From an uncultured Pelagibacteraceae bacterium (GTDB lineage: Bacteria; Pseudomonadota; Alphaproteobacteria; Pelagibacterales; Pelagibacteraceae), in the NCBI GenBank assembly GCA_902515185.1, contig CABXTN010000006.1, forward strand, positions 1 through 51,967: a stretch of 51,967 bases of DNA, given 5' to 3'. The notes under the pieces were generated by a model. That model ran no database searches. It saw only the letters and a list, made by a program, of their open reading frames with translations, and was not told where the DNA came from. This document shows positions 34,442 to 49,776 of this stretch, in pieces. Positions within the stretch are counted from its first letter, which is position 1; every line of letters starts with the position of its first letter. The position numbers and the translations under genes are program-made.

Positions 34442-35451
34442 AAACTTCTTTCTAAACTGAAAGATGTTAATTTTTTAAGTATATCTTTTTCTTTAGACTC
34501 TTCAAAAATACTTAGTGCATTTGATGCGAGGTTTATAAAATATTCTGCCTTAGAATAACAATCATTAATTATATTATTTTTTTTTATTAAATTTAAAATA
34601 AAATTTAACTCTTCTTGACTTCTCTCTTTTTTATTAAAAATATTTTTAATATCTTCTTTTTCCATTTTATTTAACTTTTGATAAAGTAGTATTATTGGTA
34701 AAGTAATTTTACCTTCATAAAAATCATTACCAATTACTTTTCCAAAAAACTTAAGATCTGAATTATAGTCTAAAGTATCATCTGCAATTTGAAAGGTTAA
34801 ACCTAAATTTTTTCCATAAAACTCTAAAGCATCTTTTATTTTTTTATCTTTATTAGCTAGTATTGATCCCACTTTAGTAGCTGCAGCAAACAATGATGCA
34901 GTCTTTGCTGAAATAATTTTTAAATATGTTTCTTCCAACATATCAACCTCACCCTTGTGTTGAAGTTGTAATACTTCACCTTGTGATATTTCTGCAGATG
35001 TTGAAGATAGGAGTTTTAAAACTTCAAGATTTCCATCTTCCACCATCATTTCAAAACATCTACTCAACAAATAGTCGCCAACAAGAATTGATGATTGGTT
35101 TCCCCAAATTTTATTTAAAGTTTTTTTGCCTCTACGCACATCACCATTATCTATAACATCATCATGCATTAATGTAGCAGCATGAATTAATTCAACACAC
35201 GCAGCTAAATTAATATCCCTAGAACCTTTTTGATAATTACATAACTTTGCTGAACCTAAAGTTAACATTGCTCTTAATCTTTTGCCACCTGTTCCCAGGT
35301 GGTATTTTGTCATTTCATCAACCAAATCTACTTTACTTGATAACTTAGTTTTAATTTTTTCTTCAACTAAAATTAACTTATCTTCAACTGAACTTTTGAG
35401 TTCTGAATATGAATTATTTATCCTATTTTTTAGCTGAACAACTGTCCCCAT
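34438..35451 (-). CDS. ispB: Long-chain polyprenyl diphosphate synthase (octaprenyl-type)
   Basis: Builds the ubiquinone side chain. GGKRLRAML, the first motif MHDDVIDNGDVRRGKKT (DDxxD, the long-chain type) and the second IADDTLDYNSD are intact in 337 residues. The amino acid five places before the first motif is Ala, compatible with a long product, but chain length is not settled by eye. It diverges from the S49 peptidase gene across a 109-bp spacer. Confidence 0.9.
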   Translation of the reverse strand: MGTVVQLKNRINNSYSELKSSVEDKLILVEEKIKTKLSSKVDLVDEMTKYHLGTGGKRLRAMLTLGSAKLCNYQKGSRDINLAACVELIHAATLMHDDVIDNGDVRRGKKTLNKIWGNQSSILVGDYLLSRCFEMMVEDGNLEVLKLLSSTSAEISQGEVLQLQHKGEVDMLEETYLKIISAKTASLFAAATKVGSILANKDKKIKDALEFYGKNLGLTFQIADDTLDYNSDLKFFGKVIGNDFYEGKITLPIILLYQKLNKMEKEDIKNIFNKKERSQEELNFILNLIKKNNIINDCYSKAEYFINLASNALSIFEESKEKDILKKLTSFSLERSF

Positions 35452-46840: not shown

Positions 46841-48730
46841 CTATTTTAAAATGTTATTTTTGATTAAATCATCCTTAATTTCATCTAGAATTTTTGGGTC
46901 ATCAATTGTTGCTGGCATTTTATATTCTTCTTTATCAGCTATTTTTCTCACTGTTCCTCTTAGTATTTTGCCAGATCTTGTTTTAGGAAGTCTTTTTACA
47001 ACAATAGCTATTTTAAATGCTGCAACAGGGCCAATTTTGTCCCTTACCATTTTTATACATTCTTTAGAAATAGTTTCATTATCCTGATCAACTCCAGCTT
47101 TTAAGGTTAATAAACCAATTGGTAATTGTCCTTTAAGTTTATCAGCTATACCAATCACGGCGCATTCGGCAACAGATTTGTGTTCAGATAAAACTTCTTC
47201 AATTGCTCCTGTAGATAGTCTGTGACCAGCTACATTAATAATGTCATCCGTACGTGACATGATCCAGATATAACCATCCTCATCAATATGTCCTGCATCA
47301 TAAGTTTGATAATAACCTTTATAATTTGACATATAGTTATCTTTGTATCTTTTATCTGCATTCCACAAAGTTGGGAAAGTCCCTGGAGGAAGTGGAAGTT
47401 TTACAACTATATCTCCCATCTCATTTGGTTTAGCAATAGTTTGATCTGGTTTAATTATCTTTACATCATAGCCTGGTACTGCTTTACAAGCAGAGCCATA
47501 TTTTGTTTTCATCATTTCTATTCCAGTGCAATTAGAACTGATAGCCCAACTAGTTTCTGTTTGCCACCAATGATCAATAACTGGAACTTTTAATAAATTT
47601 TCAGCCCATTTGATAGTATCTGGATCTGCTCTTTCTCCAGCTAAAAATAAAGATTTAAAAGAACTTAAATCATATTTAGAAAAAAATTTTCCATCAGGAT
47701 CTTCTTTTTTAATTGCCCTAAAGGCTGTAGGCGCAGTGAATAAAGATTTAATTTTATATTCAGATATTACTCTCCAAAAAACCCCAGCATCTGGAGTTCC
47801 AACAGGTTTACCCTCGAATAGTAGAGTGGTACATCCTTTAAACAGTGGTGCATAAACTATATATGAGTGACCTACAATCCACCCAATATCACTTGCAGAC
47901 CACCAAATATCTTCTTGATTAATATTATAAATATTTTTCATAGTCCATTTAAGAGCTACAATATGGCCGCCGATATCTCTCACAATACCTTTCGGAATCC
48001 CTGTTGTTCCCGAAGTATAAAGAATATATGCATAATCATTTGAATTCATTTCAACACAATCTGTATCTTTGGCATTAGCTAAACTTTCATCCCAACTTAT
48101 CTCGAGAGGTGAATTTAATTTTATTTCATTACCTTTTCTTTGATAAAAAATAACTTTTTGTAACTTATGTTTTGCTAATTTAAGAGCTCCATCTACTAGA
48201 GGTCTGTATTCAACTATTCTTCCAGGTTCAAATCCACATGATGCAGTTACCAAAATTTTTGCTTTACTATCATCTATACGACTAGCTAGTTCATTTGACG
48301 CAAATCCACCAAATACAACCGAGTGTATTGCGCCTATTCTACCGCATGCGAGCATCGCAATAACTGCTTCTGGTACCATGGGCATATAAATTACAACTCT
48401 ATCTCCTTTTTCAACACCTTGATTTTTGAGTGCCCCGGCAAATTTAGAAACTCTTTTCCTCAATTCATTGAAAGTTAATTTTGACTTATTCCCTGTAATG
48501 GGGCTATCATAAATTAGGGCTGTTTTATCTCCTAAACCATTATCTATGTGCAAGTCTACTGCATTATAACAAGTATTAGTTTTGCCATCCTCATACCATT
48601 TGTAAAATGGGGATTTTGAGCTATTAAGGATTTTTGTTGGTTTCTTAAACCAAAAAATATCATCTGATAATGATTTCCAAAATTCTTCAGGATTTTTAAT
48701 TGATTTTTCGTAAATATCTTTAAAACTCAT
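46841..48730 (-). CDS. prpE: Acetyl/propionyl-CoA synthetase (PrpE-like)
   Basis: AMP-forming acyl-CoA synthetase of 629 residues, the length of PrpE rather than Acs (about 650). Key motifs are the P-loop YTSGTTGIPKG, DIWWSASDIGWIVGHSYIVY, EYKIKSLFTAPTAFRAIKKEDP, DHWWQTETSWAI, and the C-terminal RTRSGKILRG-type segment (TRSGKILRG) with the acetylatable Lys. The EYKI..LFTAPTA segment is closer to propionyl-CoA synthetases, but acetate use is possible. It diverges from the proteorhodopsin gene across 217 bp. Confidence 0.87.
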   Translation of the reverse strand: MSFKDIYEKSIKNPEEFWKSLSDDIFWFKKPTKILNSSKSPFYKWYEDGKTNTCYNAVDLHIDNGLGDKTALIYDSPITGNKSKLTFNELRKRVSKFAGALKNQGVEKGDRVVIYMPMVPEAVIAMLACGRIGAIHSVVFGGFASNELASRIDDSKAKILVTASCGFEPGRIVEYRPLVDGALKLAKHKLQKVIFYQRKGNEIKLNSPLEISWDESLANAKDTDCVEMNSNDYAYILYTSGTTGIPKGIVRDIGGHIVALKWTMKNIYNINQEDIWWSASDIGWIVGHSYIVYAPLFKGCTTLLFEGKPVGTPDAGVFWRVISEYKIKSLFTAPTAFRAIKKEDPDGKFFSKYDLSSFKSLFLAGERADPDTIKWAENLLKVPVIDHWWQTETSWAISSNCTGIEMMKTKYGSACKAVPGYDVKIIKPDQTIAKPNEMGDIVVKLPLPPGTFPTLWNADKRYKDNYMSNYKGYYQTYDAGHIDEDGYIWIMSRTDDIINVAGHRLSTGAIEEVLSEHKSVAECAVIGIADKLKGQLPIGLLTLKAGVDQDNETISKECIKMVRDKIGPVAAFKIAIVVKRLPKTRSGKILRGTVRKIADKEEYKMPATIDDPKILDEIKDDLIKNNILK

Positions 48731-48750
48731 AATTATTATAACTGATTCAA

Positions 48751-48788
48751 AATTGCTTTAATTGCTTGATATTTAAGCAACAAGTTGC
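48751..48788. promoter_or_regulatory. Repeat cluster on the synthetase side of the divergent spacer
   Basis: AATTGCTT occurs at 48751-48758 and again at 48760-48767 with a 9-bp period; the inverted AAGCAA follows at 48775-48780, making a TTGCTT-7-AAGCAA inverted repeat. GCAAC-AA-GTTGC (48777-48788) overlaps it. The position, 20 to 60 bp before the synthetase start, suits an operator. No regulator can be named. Confidence 0.4.
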
Positions 48789-48883
48789 ATTTAATTTCAA
48801 AAAGCTAGTAAAATCAACATAAATAAGAGGTAAAAAAGTCTTCTATAAACCACAGTAATTTGGTAATTAAGCCCTTAACTTTG

Positions 48884-48921
48884 GTAGATAAAAATATCTA
48901 CTATAGTTTATATAAACTATA
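48884..48921. promoter_or_regulatory. Paired inverted repeats upstream of proteorhodopsin
   Basis: Two inverted repeats lie end to end. GTAGATA-AAAA-TATCTAC (48884-48901) is followed at once by the perfect 20-bp palindrome TATAGTTTATATAAACTATA (48902-48921). They end 26 bp before the ATG of the rhodopsin gene, where the core promoter or 5' leader should be. They could be operators or leader hairpins. AT-rich DNA makes short palindromes common, but a perfect 20-mer next to a second repeat is unusual. Confidence 0.5.
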
Positions 48922-48947
48922 AAAACTAACTAAAGAGGGAGTTTTTT

Positions 48948-49718
48948 ATGAAAAAACTTAAATTGTTTGCTTTAGCAGCTGTAGCTTTATTAGGCTTTGC
49001 TGGTTCTGCAAATGCGGAAACAGTCCTTCTAGCATCTGACGACTTTGTTGGAATATCTTTTTGGATAATTTCAATGGGTATGTTAGCTGCTACAGCATTC
49101 TTTTTCTTAGAAAGAGGATCAGTAGCTGCTGGATGGAAAACATCAGTAACAGTAGCAGGACTTGTAACTGGTATTGCATTCATTCACTATGTTTACATGA
49201 GAGGTGTATGGGTTCAAACAGGTGACTCACCAACAGTATATAGATATATTGATTGGTTAATCACTGTACCATTACAGATGATAGAATTTTATTTAATTCT
49301 AGCAGCTGTGAGAAAAGTATCAGCTAACATCTTCTGGAGACTATTAATTGGTTCTCTAGTAATGTTAATTGGAGGATACTTAGGAGAAGCAGGTTACATC
49401 AACGCAATGCTTGGTTTCATAATCGGTATGGCTGGATGGATCTACATCTTATATGAAGTATTTTCTGGTGAAGCTGGAAAAATGGCAGCTAAAAGCGGTA
49501 ACAGAGGTTTAAGTACTGCATTTGGTGCTATGAGAATGATCGTAACAGTAGGTTGGGCGATTTACCCATTAGGTTATGTATTTGGTTACTTAACAGGTGG
49601 AGTAGATGCTAACACACTTAACGTGATTTATAACTTAGCTGACTTTATTAACAAGATCGCATTCGGTCTAGTTATTTGGAGTGCAGCTGTTTCTCAGCCA
49701 GGAGCTAGAAGAGCATAA
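48948..49718 (+). CDS. Proteorhodopsin (light-driven proton pump, blue-type)
   Basis: Seven-helix retinal protein of 256 residues with an N-terminal signal (cleavage near SANA-ET, residue 23). Using standard proteorhodopsin numbering (offset 5), the residues are H80 (H75), D102 (D97, proton acceptor), E113 (E108, proton donor) and K236 (K231, Schiff base). Position 105 is Gln (Q110 here), the blue-absorbing variant. A GAGGGAG ribosome site precedes the ATG. Codon choice is markedly less AT-extreme than in the neighbours, fitting high expression. The retinal synthesis genes are not adjacent. Confidence 0.97.
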   Translation: MKKLKLFALAAVALLGFAGSANAETVLLASDDFVGISFWIISMGMLAATAFFFLERGSVAAGWKTSVTVAGLVTGIAFIHYVYMRGVWVQTGDSPTVYRYIDWLITVPLQMIEFYLILAAVRKVSANIFWRLLIGSLVMLIGGYLGEAGYINAMLGFIIGMAGWIYILYEVFSGEAGKMAAKSGNRGLSTAFGAMRMIVTVGWAIYPLGYVFGYLTGGVDANTLNVIYNLADFINKIAFGLVIWSAAVSQPGARRA

Positions 49719-49736: not shown

Positions 49737-49776
49737 AAATAGGGCGATATGTTTACATATTGCCCTATTTTTTTTT
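49737..49776 (+). terminator. Rho-independent terminator after proteorhodopsin
   Basis: A 15-bp stem (from AAATAGGGC to GCCCTATTT, continued by ATATG/CATAT with one G-T pair between) encloses a TTTA loop and is followed by a T-run to 49776. It makes proteorhodopsin likely to be mainly a single-gene transcript. Confidence 0.9.

Follow-up and report, generated by a model that had tools for sequence, protein, structure and literature searches.

The repeats upstream of the proteorhodopsin gene

Two inverted repeats stand side by side shortly before the proteorhodopsin (PR) gene of an uncultured Pelagibacteraceae bacterium, and the question raised by this locus is what role, if any, they serve. 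The preliminary description of the window (the whole stretch of 51,967 nucleotides that was analysed) placed a GTAGATA-AAAA-TATCTAC repeat flush against a perfect 20-bp palindrome, TATAGTTTATATAAACTATA, that ends 26 nt before the PR start codon, and all of this was confirmed on the sequence (Table 1). The spacer that holds both repeats had been called the largest of the genome, and at 217 bp (23.5% G+C) it does rank first in a crude ORF tiling of the window. A search for the same palindrome in the bacterium's own genome (86.6% complete), as had been proposed, found a single copy when up to two mismatches were allowed.

Table 1. Features of the proteorhodopsin locus, in window coordinates
Feature	Position	Strand	Basis or remark
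Divergent gene bounding the PR spacer	46841..48730	-	ORF
Predicted -35 element, TTCTAT	48841..48846	+	Aligned with the mapped HTCC7211 start
Predicted extended -10 element, TG-G-TAATTA	48861..48869	+	Aligned with the mapped HTCC7211 start; corresponds to TTTGN-TA of relatives
Predicted transcription start (+1)	48877	+	Homology with the mapped HTCC7211 start; 7 nt past the -10 element, as in HTCC7211
Predicted 71-nt 5' UTR (leader)	48877..48947	+	From the predicted start; the HTCC7211 leader has 74 nt
Hairpin 1, GTAGATA-AAAA-TATCTAC	48884..48901	+	Stem kept while its sequence varies; for the window a pairing of about 0.95 is predicted at 20 °C
Hairpin 2, perfect palindrome TATAGTTTATATAAACTATA	48902..48921	+	Arms conserved, centre variable; for the window a probability of only about 0.2 is predicted
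AAAAACT, possible 5' arm of hairpin 3 (tentative)	48921..48927	+	Inverted repeat; matching forms in other genera
Shine-Dalgarno-like GAGGGAG	48935..48941	+	Sequence; conserved in relatives
AGTTTTT, possible 3' arm of hairpin 3 or partner of codons 2-4	48940..48946	+	Inverted repeat, relatives and predicted folds
Proteorhodopsin gene	48948..49718	+	256-aa ORF; named in the preliminary description and from the bacteriorhodopsin product of the HTCC7211 counterpart

Judging from its sequence, we take the divergent gene to be acyl-CoA synthetase-like. Some 20 to 30 bp ahead of the PR -35 element, at 48808-48819, stands a GTAAAATCAACA-type box that was recognised by eye in many PR loci of SAR11; its minus strand reads TTGATTTTAC and could be the -35 element of the divergent gene. 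Directly 3' of PR lies a terminator-like hairpin with a T run (49737-49770), followed by ORFs that, from their sequences, are presumably ferredoxin-like, reductase-like and GST-like.

The palindrome had been thought to be the only perfect one of its size, which is incorrect, as a second one of 20 bp, TATTAAAAATATTTTTAATA, is found at 34632-34651. When the window was simulated 60 times with a first-order Markov model, one third of the simulated sequences contained a perfect palindrome of at least 20 bp, as did 49 of 20,000 simulated spacers of the same length and composition. Rarity by size was therefore rejected as an argument. The preliminary description had named a lack of conservation in close relatives as a refuting condition, and the conservation seen in relatives favours a real feature. 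Because the size is ordinary for the composition, the case must rest on comparison with relatives.

The repeats lie downstream of the predicted promoter

An mdRNA-Seq study of the Red Sea lists PB7211_669 (bacteriorhodopsin) of HTCC7211 in its Table 2 at 529616-530457 (PMC5069720). The PR coding sequence in the genome concerned (G035, locus L149) spans 529690-530457, and the listed Start thus precedes the ATG by 74 nt, falling on the A of ATCTTGG; hairpin 1 has its foot here, with its first paired base 5 nt further on. We infer that this column gives transcription start sites, and glcB was used as a check: the text of the study places the start of this gene 162 nt upstream of its codon (PMC5069720), and the glcB ATG stands exactly 162 nt after its listed Start. 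This check is stronger than a -10 consensus test over 21 HTCC7211 starts (20 other starts were inspected), which yielded a modest peak only, on an AT-rich background. In one ocean sample, the SAR11 PR message ranked tenth among the mapped SAR11 starts (PMC5069720).

The promoter predicted for the window by alignment to this start has a 17-bp spacer between its -35 and -10 elements. Of 174 leaders (161 distinct ones; the window is entered twice, as L001 and L002), 145 contain TTTGN-TANNNN. In 133 of these 145 it is preceded at 17 bp by a TTC-type hexamer, and TTTGN-TA precedes the TTTA of the palindrome by 34 to 39 bp in 139 of the 174. By homology with HTCC7211, the repeats should occupy about +8 to +45 of the PR mRNA leader, which is the 5' UTR and not the promoter. 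The earlier expectation that the core promoter lies in the repeat region did not hold, since both repeats come after the predicted promoter, and in HTCC7211 the mapped start coincides with the base of hairpin 1.

Distribution of the leader among relatives

A PR match was detected in 233 of 297 genomes of the family, 172 of 197 of the order and 35 of 385 of the class. For comparison, 229 PR loci of the order (L numbers, with some duplicates) were used; these are the best matches per search, so close relatives dominate. One locus set comprises the best 80 of 516 matches and, having no genus code, was treated as g1-like (codes f and g denote families and genera). A symmetric TTTA..TAAA core is absent from 51 of the 229 loci, among them loci cut at a contig end and loci of other genera.

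The window's genus, g2, g4 and g14 share an arrangement in which a hairpin of variable stem is followed, flush or after a few nucleotides, by a GTTTA..TAAAC-type palindrome, an A-rich linker, the Shine-Dalgarno sequence and the ATG. Loci of g7, g9 and g12 have a hairpin and then a TTTTTGTTTAAACAAAAA-type palindrome near the Shine-Dalgarno sequence, and in family f2 TAATTTTATAAAATTA-type palindromes abut the Shine-Dalgarno sequence with no obvious first hairpin. The f2 palindromes of L215-L228 are AT palindromes of 12 to 20 bp that lie at most 3 nt from a GGGGA-type PR Shine-Dalgarno sequence; L227 has none.

A perfect palindrome of at least 14 bp lies within 45 nt before the Shine-Dalgarno sequence in 53 of 73 loci (12 of 14 in f2 and 41 of 59 in f1). 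This count started from 76 hand-listed loci of the 229, namely six of g1 and most of the others, and no Shine-Dalgarno sequence was found in L123, L131 and L136; it does not include nine g4 loci (L171-L177, L210, L212), L229, the cut loci or the paralogues L140 and L198 (about 46% identity). Three loci of g7 and g9 (L129, L183, L184) were scored as misses through a fault of the start finder, as the palindrome is visible in their leaders. Palindromes of at least 14 bp are absent from 10 of 11 g5, all three g6, the one g13 and one of three g3 loci tested. Two g6 and two g5 loci of this kind have 12-bp palindromes, and g5, g6 and g13 loci still carry PR.

For class members outside the order, 20 leaders from the 30 members with a PR-like match contain no such palindrome near the Shine-Dalgarno sequence. 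Three of four loci of f10, a family of another order (L258-L260), have a hairpin followed by an AT-rich near-palindrome before the PR Shine-Dalgarno sequence, which in L259 is perfect and 12 bp long; this is possibly a distant parallel; the fourth, L257, does not have this arrangement.

A covariance model was built from a MAFFT alignment of 59 leaders; it holds only five pairs and consists mostly of sequence, and the genome search with it scored 150 first-look candidates per genome. The PR leader was its best match in all 14 genomes of g1, g2 and g4 (E of 1e-6 or better), and six genomes of other genera gave nothing better than E 0.049. The two next-best matches lie in coding sequence (L250, presumably ribosomal-protein-like genes, and L251, presumably a peptidase-like ORF), and no second copy occurs in the genomes searched.

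Hairpin 1 retains its pairing while its sequence varies

The preliminary description had proposed an alignment across SAR11 strains for covariation and conservation. Carried out on these relatives, the comparison favours a real feature, as both the pairing of hairpin 1 and the palindrome are kept while the sequence changes. Hairpin 1 was placed by Watson-Crick scoring alone, so that neither strand was favoured. The 108 distinct hairpins contain 720 Watson-Crick pairs, 36 G-U pairs, three A-C mismatches and 27 other mismatches, compared with 126 G-U to 73 A-C in shuffles of the same segments. Their mean Watson-Crick score is 6.0, versus 3.7 for shuffles and 3.8 for chimeras of halves; taken singly, 46 of 116 segments beat their own shuffles at 1 in 60.

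Two sets of sequences sharing a common dyad were evaluated for covariation. Set 1 (30 of 32 listed sequences, after L148, which is weakly paired, and L166, of another genus type, were dropped) has 94.2% of its cells paired and two-sided changes in seven of eight pairs, and the outermost pair is unpaired in 14 of the 30 sequences. Set 2 (all 20 listed sequences) has 88.5% of its cells paired and two-sided changes in eight of ten pairs. The covariation score was reached by none of 500 shuffles in either set. Relatedness inflates counts of two-sided changes, and controls with slid partners, which keep relatedness, gave lower values for every measure, far below the observed ones in both sets.

Because the mismatches on the sense strand are overwhelmingly G-U rather than A-C, the compared sequences say that selection on hairpin 1 acts at the level of the sense RNA. 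The same bias (36 to 3) speaks against a DNA cruciform for hairpin 1, one of the functions suggested in the preliminary description.

Hairpin 2 has fixed arms and a self-complementary centre

The palindrome is flanked by TAG and CTA in 154 of 178 loci. A search for its centre that did not require symmetry found 159 symmetric loci and 19 others. Six centres occur in the 159 (AAATTT in 75, ATAT in 68, ATATAT in 11, AATATT in two, ATTAAT in two and AATATATT in one), all self-complementary. The 19 others comprise 11 start-codon matches that hide a symmetric leader match, six matches outside the leader position (L134, L191, L194, L197, L219 and L223) and two near it, both in g5 (L139 and L190). Thus, with symmetry not required, the centre is self-complementary in 170 of 172 leader-position matches among GTTT..AAAC leaders, including positions that are unable to pair inside one RNA hairpin. 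A tree of 160 PR genes, picked with symmetry as a condition, implies 11 or more changes of the centre, and not all of these changes are independent evidence, since slippage of TA units can preserve symmetry by itself.

Centres of 4, 6 and 8 bp make the distance between the arms variable, which fits a hairpin of six to eight pairs with a four-base loop. Departures from the arm sequence include G-U forms, 3 of 59 at one pair, and no A-C forms.

Predicted folds of the leader

Folds were predicted for 26 chosen leaders. At 20 °C, the probability of hairpin 1 is at least 0.67 in 25 of these (the L005 type is weak, at 0.21), and that of hairpin 2 is at least 0.64 in 24, with 0.19 in the window and 0.23 in L164. 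The window leader plus 30 nt of the gene has a predicted energy of -19.8 kcal/mol (z of -2.9; 1 of 200 shuffles as good), and its minimum-energy fold holds hairpin 1 and not hairpin 2 as drawn, the left arm of the latter being paired otherwise. RNAalifold, applied to the alignment of 59 leaders, finds hairpin 2 only, because the hairpin 1 dyad shifts between clades.

A probable constitutive structural leader

On balance, we favour the reading that the two repeats are tandem, flush hairpins of the PR mRNA leader that act as a constitutive structural leader, the function being the part that we infer. Hairpin 1, whose stem begins 5 to 7 nt into the message, would slow 5'-end-dependent decay by RppH and then RNase E, and its sequence would be free because only the stem matters. 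Hairpin 2 would stack on hairpin 1 and keep its own U-rich left arm off the A-rich ribosome-binding stretch, and the Shine-Dalgarno sequence would thereby be presented in a defined, weakly paired context. SAR11, which makes PR constitutively, would in this way obtain an mRNA that is long-lived and well translated.

A leader hairpin guarding the mRNA was among the earlier guesses, and it is the one favoured by the leader position and by the signs that hairpin 1 is selected as RNA. All five genomes searched, the bacterium's own included, encode RNase E/G and an RppH-type protein above the curated cut-off, and a 5' hairpin can stabilise an mRNA and impede RppH (PMC3997798). In Candidatus P. ubique, light is reported to alter neither PR protein content nor PR gene expression, PR being constitutive (PMC3090418), and a light-responsive operator is therefore not needed.

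Several observations count against a stabiliser. The 5 to 7 unpaired 5' nucleotides should leave RppH some access, the window's own leader has hairpin 2 at a predicted probability of only about 0.2, and the palindrome is missing from most loci of g5. Nor would a simple stabiliser require arms that are fixed or a centre that is self-complementary in nearly every case. Loops need not be self-complementary, yet the centres of hairpin 2 are, and this one feature is not well explained. Our verdict, drawn from comparison of sequences, is that this is probably a real, conserved structured leader, and no earlier description of a structured PR leader was found in the open-access literature searched.

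Alternative explanations

The main rival, which we consider doubtful, is that the hairpins are part of a translational switch responding to temperature, an RNA-binding protein or a small RNA. Here, a third hairpin formed by AAAAACT and AGTTTTT would loop out most of the Shine-Dalgarno sequence and compete with hairpin 2 for the A-rich linker. These two segments flank the Shine-Dalgarno sequence in most g1 leaders, and they are replaced, with matching changes of letters and length, by GAAAACT/GGTTTTC in g2 and g4 and by GAAACT/GGTTTC in L168 and L169. However, these changes represent few events, and the L004-type clade, L121 and L167 do not retain the pairing; hairpin 3 is proposed only tentatively.

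A switch would also accord with the mutual complementarity of the TAGTTT left arm, the AAACTA right arm, the linker AAAAACTAAC, AGTTTTTT and codons 2-4, among whose pairings the predicted ensemble is split. For the window, the fold prediction at 20 °C favours codons 2-4 as the partner of AGTTTTTT (0.83), and in some leaders (L081, L113) warming from 10 to 30 °C moves the predicted partner from the linker side to these codons. Against a switch, the predicted accessibility of the partly paired Shine-Dalgarno sequence changes by at most 0.16 over this range in the 26 leaders, up or down, and PR is reported as constitutive and light-independent (PMC3090418). Nor does Rfam offer a match: the seven hits to window positions 48600-49100 at E up to 10 are all below the gathering score, and leaders L134, L154 and L215 gave one tRNA only.

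As a separate observation, AGTTTTTT-ATG-AAAAAACT at 48940-48958 could form an 8-bp hairpin with the start codon in its loop; this arrangement occurs in many g1 genomes and not in those with other codons 2-4.

A centre that changes at least 11 times among 160 PR genes, yet is self-complementary in 170 of 172 leader-position matches, also at positions unable to pair within one RNA, raises a second alternative, namely that hairpin 2 is selected as a true duplex palindrome and not as a hairpin alone. The PR mRNA leader could form a homodimer with hairpin 1 as a flanking stem, or the same bases could serve as an RNA hairpin and a DNA dyad. We regard this as unlikely. If it were true, homodimerisation would directly tune PR translation, as a palindrome, of different sequence, is again found at the Shine-Dalgarno sequence in f2, g7, g9 and g12.

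It is more improbable still that the palindrome is the DNA operator of a dimeric repressor or activator, with hairpin 1 as a separate RNA element. The conserved TAG and CTA flanks and a perfect dyad that runs through the centre in 170 leaders, beyond what can pair inside one RNA hairpin, would suit such a site. A rigid dimer rarely tolerates a variable distance between half-sites, however, and here the arms are separated by centres of three lengths; their departures include G-U and no A-C forms. The site is also single-copy within two mismatches and lies inside the transcribed leader. An operator for the palindrome was rejected on these half-site distances and because it starts at about +26, neither overlapping nor adjoining the core promoter. 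The operator of a light- or redox-responsive repressor, as earlier imagined, faces the same variable spacing, single copy and position at about +26 to +45, and for light in addition the reported lack of an effect on PR (PMC3090418).

A transcription attenuator, in which hairpin 1 would be a terminator-like leader stem, appears very improbable. Loci of g7, g9 and g12 do have a first hairpin and then a T run before GTTTAAAC, but hairpin 1 of the window lacks such a T run, and a terminator scan, under its own rules, flags nothing in the window leader or in the g9 leader L134. No GC-rich stem with a U-tract, as in an intrinsic terminator, is found in these two leaders, and a terminator was rejected. 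The combination of a hairpin, a T run and a GTTTAAAC palindrome is seen in g9 (L129, L130, L134, L183, L191, L194), g7 (L126, L184) and g12 (L133, L138, L185, L188).

Finally, a functionless palindrome, arising by chance or by quasi-palindrome correction at replication, is scarcely credible: template switching can perfect inverted repeats and a third of the simulated windows contain palindromes this long, but from genus to genus the sequence changes and the location, the palindromic symmetry and the pairing of hairpin 1 are kept, and the bias of G-U over A-C is not explained by a DNA-level mechanism.

Significance and comparison with known systems

SAR11 genomes have very short spacers, and the PR leader is kept as a structure across much of the order, which suggests that PR dosage is tuned at the mRNA level. 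With its roughly 70 nt, the leader is also a motif that can be searched for in metatranscriptomes, and a directly testable element for why PR is constitutive.

Like the PR leader, the motifs of Meyer et al. (2009) are covarying SAR11 leaders found by comparison; these are candidate RNAs of Candidatus P. ubique before the genes for ribosomal proteins S2 and S12 and before ffh, a methionine-associated riboswitch and four weaker motifs (PMC2704228). The main text of that paper does not contain the word 'rhodopsin', and no motif of its abstract or section 10 is located at PR. Its screen was aimed at long, relatively GC-rich spacers, unlike the PR spacer.

The palindrome resembles the operators of dimeric repressors in being a perfect dyad near a promoter, and differs from them in lying downstream of the start, in its variable half-site spacing and in its single copy. 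RNA thermometers and Shine-Dalgarno hairpins use a weak AU hairpin near the Shine-Dalgarno sequence, and the PR leader has one as well. In the PR leader, however, the Shine-Dalgarno sequence is mostly in the predicted loop and not in the stem, and its predicted accessibility changes little from 10 to 30 °C.

The closest comparison is with the 5' stabilising stem-loops of E. coli mRNAs such as ompA and papA, although no common descent is claimed. The PR leader differs from these in having two flush hairpins, the second of which is a sequence-conserved AU palindrome, and in its 5 to 7 nt predicted to be unpaired at the 5' end, where the ompA type has few or none. A stem at or within a few nucleotides of the 5' end is found in HTCC7211, and for the window it is predicted by homology only; that the stem matters and not its sequence is indicated by evolution only. 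As in the ompA/papA type, the stem is near the 5' end of the mRNA of an abundant membrane protein and its sequence is free, and, as for ompA, the host possesses RNase E and an RppH-type enzyme.
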